A stretch of 64,000 nt of DNA from Owenia fusiformis. Lineage: Eukaryota; Annelida; Polychaeta; Sabellida; Oweniidae. Location of the stretch: contig CAIIXF020000001.1 in NCBI GenBank assembly GCA_903813345.2, forward strand, positions 46,393,885-46,457,884, in the 5' to 3' direction. A program made the position numbers and the translations under genes. The notes under the pieces were generated by a model. The model searched no databases, was not told the origin of the DNA, and saw only the letters and a list, made by a program, of their open reading frames with translations. Shown in pieces: positions 28,045-61,147 of this stretch; the stretch's first letter is position 1; the number at the start of each line of letters is the position of its first letter.

Positions 28045-29450
28045 AACCATTTGAAACCAGCGTATGTTTTAACCTATTTGAAACATTGTTCCATGTTAAC
28101 TCATTTGAAACCAGTGTATGTTAACCCATTTGGAACTGTTTTATGTTAACTTATTTGAAACCATTCTATGTTAACTCATTTGAAAATGTTCTATGTTAAC
28201 TCATTTAAAACCATTCTGTGTTAACTCATTTGAAACTGTTCTGTGTTAACTCATTTGAAACCGTTCTATGATAACCCATTTGAAACTGTCCTATGTTAAC
28301 TCATTTGAAACCAGTCTATGTTAACCCATTTGAAACCATTCCATGTTAACTCATTTGGAACCAGTCTATGTTAACCCATTTGAAACCGTTCTATGTTAAC
28401 CCATTTGAAACCATTCTATATTGTTAACCCATTTGAAACCGTTCTATGTTAACTCATTTGAAACCATTCTATGTTAACTCATTTGAAACTGTTCTATGTT
28501 AACCCATTTGAAACCATTCCATGTTAACTCATTTGGAACCAGTCTATGTTAACCCATTTGAAACCGTTCTATGTTAACTCATTTGAAACCATTCTATGTT
28601 AACTCATTTGGAACCAGTCTATGTTAACCCATTTGAAACCGTTCTATGTTAACCCATTTGAAACCATTCTATGTTAACCCATTTGAAACCATTCCATGTT
28701 AACTCATTTGGAACCAGTCTATGTTAACCCATTTGAAACTGTTCTATGTTAACCCATTTGAAACCATTCCATGTTAACTCATTTGGAACCAGTCTATGTT
28801 AACCCATTTGAAACCATTCCATGTTAACTCATTTGAAACTGTTCTATGTTAACCCATTTGAAACCGTTCTATGTTAACTCATTTGAAACCATTCTATGTT
28901 AACTCATTTGAAACTGTTCTATGTTAACCCATTTGAAACCATTCCATGTTAACTCATTTGGAACCAGTCTATGTTAACCCATTTGAAACCGTTCTATGTT
29001 AACTCATTTGAAACCATTCTATGTTAACTCATTTGGAACCAGTCTATGTTAACCCATTTGAAACCGTTCTATGTTAACCCATTTGAAACCATTCTATATT
29101 GTTAACCCATTTGAAACCGTTCTATGTTAACTCATTTGAAACCATTCTATGTTAACTCATTTGAAACTGTTCTATGTTAACCCATTTGAAACCATTCCAT
29201 GTTAACTCATTTGGAACCAGTCTATGTTAACCCATTTGAAACCGTTCTATGTTAACTCATTTGAAACCATTCTATGTTAACTCATTTGGAACCAGTCTAT
29301 GTTAACCCATTTGAAACCGTTCTATGTTAACCCATTTGAAACCATTCTATGTTAACCCATTTGAAACCGTTCTATGTTAACTCATTTGAAACCATTCTAT
29401 GTTAACTCATTTGAAACTGTTCTCTGTTAACTTATTTGAAACATCTTAAT
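28045..29450. repeat. 25-bp minisatellite, about 56 units, with higher-order structure
   Basis: The unit is approximately GTTAACCCATTTGAAACCRT plus TCTAT (25 bp); GTTAAC recurs in nearly every unit. Variant types alternate: GAAACCATTC, GAAACCGTTC or GAAACTGTTC, and GGAACCAGTC. A 3-bp-longer variant (TTCTATATTG) occurs at 28413 and again at 29091, exactly 678 bp apart (27 units plus 3), and the sequence around both matches for roughly 340 bp. A related block repeats at a 425-bp (17-unit) offset. 25 is not a multiple of 3, so it is not coding. Confidence 0.95.
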
Positions 29451-56065: not shown

Positions 56066-56739
56066 TGCAGACAGCCCCCTCTATCAGCCAATCAAGTAAG
56101 CTTGCTCTGCAATAAGTCTAATTCGGGCCCATGTTGCCAAAATTGTCCAAGTCAACTGAAAAATATAAAATAATGTGTACTAAAGATGTAAGTTTTTGCT
56201 GATTTCATAAAATATAAATTGATAACATATCCATCCATATAGAAGTCATCATAACATAGAGATTAGGGAGGGGAAATGTTTGATACATTGATTTGAGTTA
56301 TTTCCCAGACGGATGCACATACATGTGTATGGACATATGCAATAAATTATACACTCATTAATAAATAATAGTTTTTAAACTTATCAAAATTTGTTGATAA
56401 TCCCTGAGTTTAAACACTAGGATTAATAAGAAAGATAATCCTGTCATCTTGGGCTGCAAATTTTGAAAGTTTTGAGACAGATGTAAACAAATTATTTTAT
56501 AAACAAACTGATTATCAATTAATCCCGGATAATATGTCACGTTTGAGTCCCATTTAAGTAGATTATTACTTGAGCATTTATTATTCCCTTAATCGAAACA
56601 ATTGGATTAATTAGAAAGATAATACCGTCATTTTGGTAAGCAGCTAAGTCCAGCACTCAAGGCTTATAAGTCAAGTGACATAGCACTACTCAAAGTCAGA
56701 TTAACTGACTCAAGCGGCTCAAGATGTTAAATCTGTTGT

Positions 56740-56800
56740 TGCATTGCTCAAAATGTCAAAATGTCAAATCTTCTCAGTGTTGCATTGCTCAAAATGTCAG
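56740..56800 (+). repeat. Duplicated promoter-proximal motif TTGCATTGCTCAAAATGTCA
   Basis: The 20-bp sequence occurs twice (about 56740 and 56781), with an extra partial AAAATGTCA between. Related sequence ACTCAAGCGGCTCAAGATGT precedes it. The pair lies 20-80 bp upstream of the CCAAT box of the small intronless gene, so it may be regulatory. Confidence 0.6.
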
Positions 56801-56818
56801 AACTGTTGCTTCATTCTG

Positions 56819-56880
56819 ATTGGTTCTGGGATTTGATAGAGCACCTTATAAAAATCAACCATCAAAGTATGAACAGTATT
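56819..56880 (+). promoter_or_regulatory. CCAAT and TATA core promoter of the small histone-like gene
   Basis: ATTGG at 56819-56823 is an inverted CCAAT box. TATAAAA follows at 56847-56853. The expected start of transcription is about 56878, giving a leader of only ~37 nt before the ATG at 56915. This close CCAAT-TATA-ATG spacing is the usual design of replication-dependent histone genes. Confidence 0.7.
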
Positions 56881-56914
56881 CTACATTGAATACTAAGAAA
56901 GCACATAATCAGCA

Positions 56915-57223
56915 ATGGCACCCAGGGCAAACAAAAAGAAAACCACCAAGACTAAAGTAAAGAAAGAGATCACAATTGAACAGCAAGAACACATCAATCG
57001 CATCAAGCTCCTGAAAAAACAACTACGGGATCAACAAAAGAAAAAATTGAAGCTCATCAAATTGATTGCAAGAGCTGAGCATAGACAAAGCAATCCACAA
57101 TACATAGCTAAGATCAAAGAGGAGCTTGACAATGTGGCTGTAATGGAGATGAGGGAGCAACTACAGGCTGCCATATCCATCATAGACATGAACGCCACAG
57201 AGCCTGATATGAGGAGATGTTGA
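56915..57223 (+). CDS. Intronless lysine-rich coiled-coil protein with histone-type mRNA end, 102 aa
   Basis: The single exon encodes 102 residues. The N-terminal 20 residues are a basic tail (MAPRANKKKTTKTKVKKEIT). Residues about 21-75 are a highly charged, Leu/Ile-spaced helix likely to form a coiled coil (HINRIKLLKKQLRDQQ onward), and 76-102 are a less basic amphipathic helix ending in Cys. No histone fold and no H1 winged helix is recognisable, and it matches no family I know. The ATG has G at -3 and G at +4. What marks the gene as real is its surroundings: CCAAT and TATA boxes upstream and a consensus histone 3' stem-loop 29 nt after the stop. I infer an S-phase-expressed, non-polyadenylated mRNA for a small basic, perhaps DNA- or chromatin-associated, protein. 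It lies head-to-head with the SLC25 gene, 849 bp away. Confidence 0.75.
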   Translation: MAPRANKKKTTKTKVKKEITIEQQEHINRIKLLKKQLRDQQKKKLKLIKLIARAEHRQSNPQYIAKIKEELDNVAVMEMREQLQAAISIIDMNATEPDMRRC

Positions 57224-57252
57224 GAAGCAGAGTCTACAGTTCGCAAACCAAA

Positions 57253-57291
57253 GGTCCTTTTCAGGACCAGCCATAATTAAAAAAGAGAAAT
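57253..57291 (+). terminator. Histone mRNA 3' stem-loop and downstream element
   Basis: GGTCCT-TTTC-AGGACC (57253-57268) is a 6-bp stem with a 4-nt loop, preceded by CCAAA and followed by AGCCA. It fits the metazoan histone 3' consensus (GGYYYT, TTTC loop, ARRRCC) at every position. A purine tract AAAAAAGAGAAA (about 57279-57290) sits where the U7-snRNP-binding histone downstream element is expected. In histone genes SLBP and U7 snRNP direct cleavage just after the loop, without a poly(A) tail. Confidence 0.85.
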
Positions 57292-57696
57292 TTAAATAAT
57301 GAATTCTTCTTAGACCCAGATGAACTAGAAAAAAGATAAATTATGTAATGTTTCAAAGGATTCGTGAACATCAATTGCTACATGTACATCATTTTTATAA
57401 AATATGCTCATAGTTTGATGTAACTAATTGCAAATATCAAAGCACATGTGCCAGGGTATAACTAAAAATTGGCAACTCCAGGGAGTAGCAAATTCCAACG
57501 AGCACTATAATATCTTTGAATGTGCATTATGTCAATGAAAGTTTTGTTTACCATCTACTCTACCCTTGATTAAATTGGCAGATATTATAAAAGACATACA
57601 TTGGAGATCAGAATTTCCATTGATTTAAGGATTTGAGTCCCAAAGGCACAAATCATTAAGACAATACAATACCTGAGTTCCAACATAGTATACTAG
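57292..57696. other. No feature recognised
   Basis: AT-rich non-coding sequence between the small histone-like gene and the Harbinger MITE. I saw nothing further in it. Confidence 0.4.
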
Positions 57697-58110: not shown

Positions 58111-59005
58111 TGTAACCATCTGTAAGAAATTGTGAATTCCTGCTCTAGGCAGCCATTCTAAGGCACAAATCAGAAAACAATACCACAATTACTCAGATGT
58201 GAGGAGGTAATTACCAGTTTCGCCACCAGTTGGCTGATTCAGGGGAAATAACATGGCAGGGTATTGATTCATCTTCCAGAAGGATGGCGGGACTGACGGA
58301 CGGAGGGCTTCACTATATCCCTAGCAAATTTCATTTGTTTGGATATGACCAACAAAAAGAAGTAAGAACACAGACAAAAGTTCATTGAAAGGTACAAAGA
58401 TTCATATAAAAGATAAAAATATAAAAGATTCAAATCCCAATATCCCAAAAAATGATCTAACATATAAAGAAACAGTGTCTAACTGCCACTCCATCATTCG
58501 GAATATATATATCTTTTATTGACTCTTTAGATGTCATGCTCTGACATATTAGTCATTACAAAATAAAAACATTGTACTACACTACACTACACTAGGTCTA
58601 AGCTATTATAATACAATACATTATCACAATAACATTAAAAAAAGAAATAAAAGAAATGGTACATTTTGGAGTATGATGCTCACAGCATGATACCAGCCTG
58701 TGATACAAGTAAAATGACACTATTGATCTAGAGAGAAAATCATTAATCAATTAATAAGATGGACAAACATGTTGAATATAGGAAGGAACAACAATGGTAA
58801 CAATACGATATACTGTATTGGCAATTAGATAATCAATGTAAAGACTTGAAGGAAGCCACTGAGAAGGAAATGAAAACATGAACTGGTCTATTCATGAACT
58901 ATTTATGGATCTATATCACTATTATGAGCATTCCGGTTTAATACACCATCTACAGTTTTATTTGACTTGCGGAAAGTTGTGAACTCAAGAGGCTCTGACA
59001 TTAAA
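58111..59005. other. GPCR upstream region with LINE tail
   Basis: Contains a 3'-end fragment of the 13.9 kb LINE family on the minus strand (about 58502-58600: ATATATATCTTTTATTGACT, GACATATTAGTCA) and a short ACTAC microsatellite near 58575. No coding exon is recognised; GPCR 5' untranslated sequence probably ends this region. Confidence 0.45.
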
Positions 59006-61147
59006 ATGGTTTCTTATATATCAAATGAAGAAAAAGGAATAGAAATCATAGTATTAAGTTTTATTTGTTCACTAGCTGTTTTCGGGAATTTTACAATTGT
59101 TATGATCATATTAATAAACAAAGGGTTACAAACATATGCAAATACCTTTGTTTTGTGCCTTTGTATCGCAGATATCTTTGTGGGAATATTTAACATACCA
59201 ATGACAATTGTTGCCATCGTTACAGGAGTTTGGACATTTGGAGATGAGATGTGTATGATATCTGGATTTGTCAACATGTTGACACTGGTTGGGAGTGTCC
59301 TCTCTCTATGCAATATAAGTATCAATCGTTACATCATGATTTGCAGTACACAGAGATACAACAAAGTATATAACAAGAAAAACACTTTATTCATGATATT
59401 AGGTGAGTTCATTTACCTTCTATTAAAACCTTAAAACCTTATTAACCCTTTTGACCTTCTTAAGGTCATTGAAGGTCAAATCTTAAATCAGCTTTGAACT
59501 TCTGAAAACTTTTTGGAAAAAATTGAAGTCAGTCTAAACAGTATTTGTTATGTCATTGGAAGCTTTAAGCATTTGTTACAGACGCCACCCACCAATCGTA
59601 AACCTTTTTTGACCTCAAAAAGGTCAATGAAGGTCAAATCTTAAGTTTAAAGTCAGATTTGAACTTCTGAAAACTTATAGATGATTTTGAAAAAAATTGA
59701 AGTCAGTCCATAAACAGTATTTGTTAAATTATTGCCAGTTAAAAATTTGTTACAGAGGCCAACCACCAACGGCCGTCACAAAAAACAGAGACCATAACAA
59801 TATGTCACCACTTTTAGGTGGTGACATAAAAAATGGAGACCATAACAATATATCACCACTTTTTGGTGGTGACATAATAATTATCCAATCCGCATTTAGA
59901 AATTTAGAGAAGAAAACTATTCATTTTCGGTGAAAAAATATAAGAATTGATGGACAAAAATATTTGTCTAAAATTTCAATTCACTTAATATACTTATAAC
60001 ATAACATATAAATGCAAGTTATACTTTTATATATGAGGGAAATCTCTAATCATTGAGACAACCTATTTATGAATGTGACATATCATGACCCGGTATCATG
60101 ACTAGTACTACCTTAGCTATCGGAATTCTTGTTTCTGGTAAAATTGATGTGTGAATTGAAAGTTGTTTTTGGAGTGCATTTTTAACAAAAAATTTTTGCA
60201 ATGAGAGAGAGTGGTGTTTCATGACAAGGGATGTCACAGTTTCCTGATATTGTCCCGTCCCGTTGTATTGGTTATGTCCCATCCTAAATGTCCCATCCCG
60301 AAATGGATAATTCCCGTCCCGTCCCTAAATACTTTTGTTCCGTGACATCCCTAATCATGACCATATTTGATTGAATTAATTCTACAGAAATAAGCATTAA
60401 ATATTTTTTATATTTATAGGTATATGGATTTTCTCTGCTTGCATCTCATGTCCTCCAGTATTAGGATGGGGAGTATACACATATATTCCAACCCAGTCTA
60501 TGTGCTTCTGTGATTGGAAAGTATCAATATCTTACACATTATTTATGGTAGCAGTGTGTTTTGGAGGACCTTGTTCCATCATGTCAATCTGCTATGTAAG
60601 GCTTCTATTAGAAGTTCGAAAAAGTAGAAAAAGAATGGAAACAGGTACAAAAACTGACTTACCAGGTACTAGATTGCACACTTCACAATTCACTAAATCA
60701 AATAAGGAAACAGCATTTGATAAGAACAATACACTTAATGTTCCCGTTGATAACCACAAAGCTGCACATACCAGAAATAAAGACAAAATAGCAAAGGACA
60801 AGAAAGATAAGAAACAAGAAGATGAGATAAAATTGGCAATTTCACTTCTGGTTGTCATAGTAACATTCATCATATCATGGCTTCCTTTTTGCATAACCAT
60901 GTTCATCTCAGTTTTCTCTGGCGAGAATGTATCAAGGACTGCAGATATTACTACACTGATTCTAGGCTACGCAAATAGCGCATACAACCCTATTATTTAT
61001 GGACTAATGAATAAAAGGTACCAGGAAGGATTCAAAAAAATATTTCACAGGTGTTCAAAATTGAACAACTCTGTTACTAATCACAGGGTTGATCAGTCAG
61101 TAATAGCATCATCATACACAACAGAAACAAAAATAATACATTCATAA
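59006..61147 (+). CDS. Rhodopsin-class (class A) G-protein-coupled receptor, 374 aa
   Basis: Two coding exons, 59006-59402 and 60420-61147 (GT-AG, phase 1; the intron falls at the start of TM4). Seven hydrophobic segments with class A marks: GN (27-28) in TM1, LCIAD with Asp56 in TM2, Cys83 and Cys161/163 for the TM3-loop 2 disulfide, NRY (107-109) in place of DRY, SWLPF (285-289) in TM6 and NPIIY (322-326) in TM7. Intracellular loop 3 is long (about 195-268) and Lys-rich. NRY followed by IMICSTQRYNKVY resembles melatonin receptors, while PPVLGWG before TM5 recalls opsins; the opsin retinal-binding Lys in TM7 is absent (GYANSAYNPIIY). An orphan receptor, ligand unknown. The first ATG after an in-frame TTG region is used as start; the N-terminus is only about 12 residues. 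Confidence 0.88.
59450..59876 (+). repeat. Tandem ~170-bp repeat and GGTGGTGACAT hairpins in GPCR intron
   Basis: Two imperfect copies of a unit containing AAGGTCAAATCTTAA, TTTGAACTTCTGAAAACTT, AAATTGAAGTCAGTC and TTTGTTACAGA start near 59450 and 59615. They are followed by two hairpins: TATGTCACCAC...GTGGTGACATA at 59801-59828 and a near-copy at 59850-59876. Confidence 0.65.
60226..60353. mobile_element. Small hAT-type MITE (128 bp) in GPCR intron
   Basis: Left end AAGGGATGTCAC and right end GTGACATCCCTA are inverted; flanks TTCATGAC (60218-60225) and ATCATGAC (60354-60361) match at 7 of 8 positions. The interior contains repeated GTCCCGTCCCG. Confidence 0.65.

Follow-up and report, generated by a model that had tools for sequence, protein, structure and literature searches.

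A non-histone gene with a histone-type mRNA 3' end in the annelid Owenia fusiformis, one of many in its genome

Results

Gene anatomy at the locus

The stretch analysed here, a 64-kb portion of the Owenia fusiformis genome (C1:46393885-46457884; hereafter the window, to which positions given without a contig refer), contains an intronless open reading frame (ORF) of 102 aa at 56915-57223 on the forward (+) strand, just as the original prediction had called it. All further features of the gene lie on the same strand. A TATA box (TATAAA, 56847-56852) precedes the ATG by 68 nt, and a histone-type stem-loop (57253-57268) follows the stop codon after 29 nt, a distance that ranges from 21 to 34 nt in 25 histone genes of this genome. 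In having a TATA box the gene is typical of its class, with the motif TATAWA present at -120 to -40 in 19/25 histone genes and 46/55 non-histone stem-loop genes versus 31/240 control stretches. The inverted CCAAT box (ATTGG, 56819-56823), a 5-mer that is weak when taken alone, is absent from most H1 genes and most related non-histone genes and is no general feature of the class; it is the weak part of the "complete histone-type promoter" described earlier. When the surrounding sequence (56300-57249) was subjected to dinucleotide shuffling, an ORF of 102 aa or more appeared anywhere in 38 of 4000 shuffles and ended 10-60 nt before the end of the stretch in none of them; an ORF in this particular place is unlikely by chance. 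A weak poly(A) signal, ATTAAA, at 57276 leaves room for polyadenylation of the transcript. Elsewhere in the window, exons that by eye resemble a rhodopsin-type GPCR lie just downstream of the gene (58928-61147, +), and a 25-bp tandem repeat of approximately 54 copies occupies 28089-29442.

The histone-type 3' end

The stem-loop GGTCCT-TTTC-AGGACC comprises a 6-bp stem (GGTCCT, 57253-57258; AGGACC, 57263-57268) and a 4-nt loop (TTTC, 57259-57262) that conform to the SLBP-binding consensus. It is recognized by the Rfam Histone3 family (RF00032; 57248-57293) with 36 bits and an E-value of 8.2e-07 (gathering score 34), the sole Rfam match above gathering score within the 64 kb. A covariance model trained on histones only, namely 29 histone 3' ends of the same genome (18 from H1 genes, 7 from H2A/H2B genes outside the core clusters, and 4 from core histone genes), matches the entire processing region (57245-57309) with 62.2 bits (E 4.1e-14), against 15.3 bits (E 0.48) for the runner-up in the window. 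The match spans the stem-loop, a purine-type histone downstream element (HDE; AAAAGAGAAATT, 57281-57292), which agrees with the downstream consensus of the 29 histone 3' ends and is aligned by the model at a histone-like distance, and an ATGAAT block (57299-57304) that the majority of the aligned histone genes likewise have beyond the HDE. The stem-loop that had been described 29 nt past the stop as matching the animal histone consensus is borne out by both models, the Rfam scan named as a check has returned a match above its cut-off, and the purine tract read as a U7-binding position matches, at the level of sequence, the HDE consensus of the genome's own histone genes. That a non-histone gene here bears a histone-type 3' end is, as an observation on the DNA, confirmed.

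The encoded protein

The protein is basic (pI 10.1), with 17 Lys, 8 Arg, 9 Glu, and 4 Asp among its 102 residues. Single-sequence AlphaFold2 modeling predicts a two-helix hairpin (residues 21-56 and 61-93) preceded by a Lys-rich N-terminus, with a mean pLDDT of 79.7 and a pTM of 0.53 for the best model (68.9-75.2 mean pLDDT for the other four); we read the product as a basic coiled-coil hairpin of two helices whose tail is rich in Lys. Scans against Pfam and NCBIfam gave nothing over the cut-offs, a sequence search of the PDB nothing below E 0.017, and a Foldseek search of the model against the PDB nothing below E 1.4; within the 498-Mb assembly the protein matched only itself. Viral origin was considered and set aside, no relative having been found among viral contigs. 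Neither the histone fold (PF00125) nor the H1 winged-helix domain (PF00538) is among its Pfam matches at E-values up to 10, while six control proteins of the same genome, four H1 (101-104 bits) and two H2A/H2B, score 64-104 bits with the Pfam histone models. The identification of the protein as a histone or H1 was rejected on these grounds, in keeping with the earlier claim that it possesses neither domain; a profile match placing it in a known histone family, which had been put forward as a result that would overturn that claim, was sought and none was found.

Stem-loops across the genome

The assembly searched totals 498 Mb, of which contigs C1-C12 (32-62 Mb each) make up 477 Mb; a published account gives 12 chromosomes for the species (PMC9539403). 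Across the genome, 101 sites fit the stem-loop pattern AANGGYYYTTYTHARRRCCA, that of the window included, versus 4 for the reversed control. From 100 of these matches, two of which share a locus, 99 loci were examined and sorted by eye on the ORF ending within 300 nt upstream of the stem-loop, yielding 25 histones (4 H1 and 2 H2A/H2B confirmed by Pfam, the other 19 by eye only), 55 small non-histone ORFs of coiled-coil type, among them that of the window, and 19 others. The locus set leaves out the 101st pattern match, C4:23663766, C144:17026, C9:9724071, C10:2398405, and C11:4377334. A genome-wide Rfam search produced at least 74 matches; the window's is not among the matches listed, as no more than 75 of 98277 candidates were scored. 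Thirteen further loci, eleven taken from the Rfam matches and two from a BAA pattern, comprise two H1 genes (L103, L104), two genes of the coiled-coil family described below (L102, L105), three Cys-rich genes (L108-L110), a separate coiled-coil gene (L114), a locus related to a transposase (L111), and four loci at which no ORF is clear (L106, L107, L112, L113). The gene in the window is one of many non-histone genes with a histone 3' end in this genome. At the level of DNA sequence, Owenia fusiformis appears to be an exception to the claim that essentially only histone mRNAs have such an end. The description of the gene as an orphan holds for its protein sequence, which has no detectable relative; as a type of gene it is not alone.

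The motif AAGAG, which formed no part of the search pattern, is found 5-40 nt past the stem in 20/25 histone genes, 48/55 non-histone genes (and is absent there in the other 7/55), and 14/19 other loci, as opposed to 64/1782 control stretches. Among 62 chosen non-histone 3' ends, the window's included, whose alignment was fitted to the structure, 99.5% of cells are paired, 31 cells show two-sided changes, and the covariation score is 0.230, each of these three measures being equalled by 0/500 shuffles; most of the two-sided changes (25/31) exchange T-A for C-G at the third pair, and the remaining two of five measures fall within the shuffles (pairs with a two-sided change, 167/500; further pair types, 500/500).

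Several other carriers of the signal were encountered. A 337-aa ORF of Tc1-like transposase type (L014, C3:1551269-1552448), for which Pfam yields weak, sub-cut-off HTH/Tc3 matches over the first 150 residues, and the two related copies L111 and L089 are all furnished with a complete stem-loop and HDE scoring 60-64 bits under the histone-only model, and the similarity between L014 and L111 continues through the 3' end. A dispersed repeat (L010, L037, L080, L084, L085, L096, L112), some copies of which are 99% identical, carries a stem-loop and HDE at 61-66 bits with no obvious adjoining ORF. Two ORFs of approximately 220 aa resembling SGNH/GDSL hydrolases, L008 (C1:55.26 Mb; below the PF13472 cut-off) and L098 (C12:29.03 Mb; above the PF00657 cut-off), end 14 and 28 nt, respectively, before a histone-type stem-loop with HDE. 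The Cys-rich proteins (92-100 aa; C10:29.54, 32.81, and 32.82 Mb) are each encoded 19 nt before a histone-type 3' end, and the one tested has a RING-finger match of E 0.058, below cut-off. Lastly, at L113 (C7:8084111) a core-type stem-loop and its HDE (60.7 bits) stand by themselves, with no clear ORF in front.

Histone genes and their stem-loops

The letters before the stem are different in the core histone genes, which were found only with a second pattern, BAAGG (77 matches in the genome and 0 in the control). Core-type stem-loops are concentrated at three places (37, 30, and 6), the core clusters being situated at C8:9.82-9.87 Mb, C10:7.89 Mb, and C11:19.69-19.74 Mb, and all 73 listed in these clusters are identical over 20 letters (CAAGGTCCTTCTCAGGACCA). 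In the repeat unit that was read, H2A is encoded on the strand opposite to H2B, H4, and H3; published work on the species likewise places H2A on the opposite strand of its repeat units and reports core-histone clusters of 35 and 29 genes together with a small one of 4 (PMC12153100). In H1, variant, and non-histone genes the usual letters are AA[AC]GG, with variation among genes, and the window's stem-loop (AAAGGTCCTTTTCAGGACCA) is nearer to this type than to the core type. On the sequences, the division looks like two regulatory classes or the outcome of concerted evolution.

A large coiled-coil family with histone 3' ends

To reach the family independently of the stem-loop, the genome was searched with one member protein (L079, E up to 0.01), which gave 80 matches, 8 of them with an internal stop. 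Whereas 43 fall in loci already known by their stem-loop, 37 are new, and 35 of the latter carry the 3' end under the histone-only model (E up to 1.3e-5), two of them weakly: L157 (35.4 bits) and L159 (30.8 bits). Overall, the 3' end accompanies 78/80 matches; the same model finds no stem-loop in the stretch examined at L129 and L154. Some members (L065, C8:13692883 and 13692926; L078, C8:35005238 and 35005285; L148) possess two tandem histone stem-loops, 34-47 nt apart.

Members share a core resembling DQLLLIDDKxKxxExRYxRA...YSLRLQLS. The family is mostly acidic, and many members end in an Asp/Glu-rich tail with an aromatic residue, which we take to recall the motifs of histone chaperones. 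In twelve partly overlapping groups of coiled-coil genes (some genes belong to more than one), pooled dN/dS is 0.17-0.38; in ten groups all pairs have dN below dS, as do 25/28 pairs of group C3a and 6/10 pairs of the L063/L064 group, for which pooled dS is 1.16. The window ORF, having no relative, stands outside these groups. Judged from these ratios, the family is under purifying selection and its members look like real proteins. Pfam offers no family over cut-off for seven members scanned singly or for L032. Tubulin cofactor A (TBCA), considered as the origin of the family, is matched by 6/18 members at E up to 0.05 (best 5.1e-5; L032, 22.4 bits against a cut-off of 30.3), and the A1 profile matches the BAP31 coiled coil at E 7.1e-6; both were dismissed, by judgement, as generic coiled-coil similarity. 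A second small coiled-coil group is formed by L114 (C4:28161209) and its matches at C4:28.76 Mb and C11:25.60 Mb, with stem-loops at some copies. Under the histone-only model, three loci matched by L114 and not by the large family (L163-L165) gave hits of 40.9 bits (L164) and 35.0 bits (L165) and no hit (L163).

At the level of sequence, no membership of the large family can be detected for the window protein. Its profile similarity to the family amounts to 0.5 bits, equalled by 195/500 shuffles, and to the first family profile 0.4 bits (E 28), equalled by 557/1000; hhalign gives a probability of 0.1%, and the best Smith-Waterman z against 92 proteins is 2.2. Membership was accordingly regarded as unsupported by sequence. 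The same shuffle test recruits L004 and L038 to the family (0/500 shuffles each), finds only marginal similarity for L114 (7/500 as good), and leaves L097 (457/500) in a position similar to that of the window protein.

SLBP and candidate U7 components

Matches to the SLBP RNA-binding domain are present in the genome at C5:14876994-14877641. A U7-like candidate (L121) contains TCTCTTTT, complementary to AAAAGAGA of the window, followed by GTTTGTCTAG and a 10-bp stem; it would pair with the window HDE over 8 nt, although the search pattern itself demanded TCTCTTT. The candidate scores 15.7 bits with Rfam U7, below the gathering score of 34. The search pattern is not enriched (30 matches versus 111 in the control), and of ten matches that were read only L121 has the right layout. 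A single match from the Rfam U7 search of the genome (24.2 bits, cut-off 34) was rejected, as it is without a U7-like Sm site.

Discussion

Interpretation of the locus and alternative explanations

The reading favored here, with a probability of approximately 0.8, is that the window harbors a genuine non-histone gene whose expression relies on the histone mRNA pathway. The TATA promoter would give rise to an intronless transcript, SLBP would bind the 16-nt stem-loop, and U7 snRNP would pair with AAAAGAGA downstream; as a consequence of these two contacts, the transcript would be cut a few nucleotides past the stem and would bear no poly(A) tail. Histone mRNAs are produced and retained chiefly during S phase, or are stored in oocytes, and the abundance of the window mRNA would by the same biology be coupled to S phase or depend on an oocyte store. 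The gene is probably an S-phase-coupled, non-histone user of the SLBP/U7 pathway, and the original suggestion of a new user of that pathway is well supported at sequence level by the match to the stem-loop/HDE model, the SLBP domain, and the many similar genes. Most simply, the product would be a nuclear protein for which demand scales with DNA replication; that it binds chromatin or DNA through its basic tail, the hairpin dimerizing or bundling, is conjecture.

The same anatomy might be accounted for in other ways. The mobile carriers of the signal, i.e., the Tc1-like elements and the anonymous repeat with their scores of 60-66 bits, raise the prospect that transposons or repeats have placed the 3' end behind unrelated ORFs and that some carriers, perhaps including the window gene, are decaying accidents; this is improbable for a gene whose ORF, TATA box, and histone-like stop-to-stem spacing are intact, in a genome where the proteins of the large family are maintained by purifying selection. 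The genome search for other copies of the locus was made with its protein. Less probable again is a chance ORF beside the orphaned 3' end of a lost histone gene. The absence of a homologue in the searches made (genome, Pfam, NCBIfam, PDB sequences, and viral contigs) would be expected on that account, whereas the intact 3' end, the failure of every shuffle to place such an ORF there, and the many comparable genes in the genome argue against it. Scarcely credible, finally, is a very diverged histone or linker histone: its Lys-rich N-terminus and histone-type gene anatomy are suggestive, yet the protein matches no histone in Pfam, NCBIfam, or PDB sequences, while control histones score strongly with Pfam, and its predicted fold is a two-helix hairpin.

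A different question is whether the window gene descends, with much divergence, from the large coiled-coil family and so has its origin as well as its 3' end in common with it. The proposal is tentative, and we hold it to be somewhat short of even odds. The gene belongs to a similar size class and has the same TATA promoter and combination of stem-loop and HDE, its stop-to-stem distance resembles that of 18/54 other non-histone ORFs, its protein is predicted to form a hairpin (21-56/61-93), and a promoter stretch, CTGATTGGTTC, is common to it and the family member L003 on the same chromosome; against these points, none of the four sequence comparisons reported above yields a signal.

Implications for the histone mRNA pathway

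Regardless of its ancestry, a real non-histone gene in the window, taken with its many counterparts, suggests that the histone mRNA machinery has a much broader use in Owenia fusiformis than is known. It is slightly better than an even bet that SLBP/U7 in this annelid lineage has ceased to be a histone pathway and constitutes a general S-phase (or maternal-store) channel for approximately 100 non-histone genes, including a lineage-specific coiled-coil family that is partly acidic and possibly histone-chaperone-like, the basic orphan of the window, Cys-rich proteins, and a Tc1-like transposon that may thereby time its transposase to DNA replication. The coiled-coil family is probably expressed together with the histones. 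Many conserved non-histone genes with a complete signal would, if that signal works, contradict the histone-only rule, and as genes with a common mRNA end and different proteins they provide a natural experiment on the purpose of the ending. A chromatin or replication role is now testable for a large family in which no tested member has a Pfam model over cut-off. Such genes would tend to be overlooked by poly(A)-selected RNA-seq.

Among the papers listed in searches of the open-licence literature, none reports animal non-histone genes with histone stem-loops, and no paper on the stem-loops of Owenia fusiformis was found; subscription papers and most preprints lay outside this scope, so an earlier description is possible. 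The word "stem-loop" occurs 0 times in the main text of the published work on Owenia histones (PMC12153100).

Comparison with known systems

Human cells are reported to contain non-histone, protein-coding mRNAs with no poly(A) tail or a short one (PMC3188798). These resemble the window gene in being protein-coding and non-histone, but differ in that the portion of that report drawn on here mentions a U7-directing stem-loop for histone genes only (PMC3188798). Like the window gene, the members of the coiled-coil family are small uninterrupted ORFs, mostly with a TATA box, that are followed by a stem-loop and HDE and are helix-rich by appearance, although many of them are acidic with an Asp/Glu-rich aromatic tail and none is detectably homologous to the window protein. 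The replication-dependent histone genes (H1, H2A, H2B, H3, and H4) likewise combine an uninterrupted ORF, a TATA box in most cases, and a short 3' UTR with the class of stem-loop, the HDE, and the ATGAAT block that are seen in the window; what sets the window gene apart from them is its product, which is not a histone, and, relative to the core clusters, a stem-loop that reads AAAGGTCCTTTTCAGGACCA in place of CAAGGTCCTTCTCAGGACCA.
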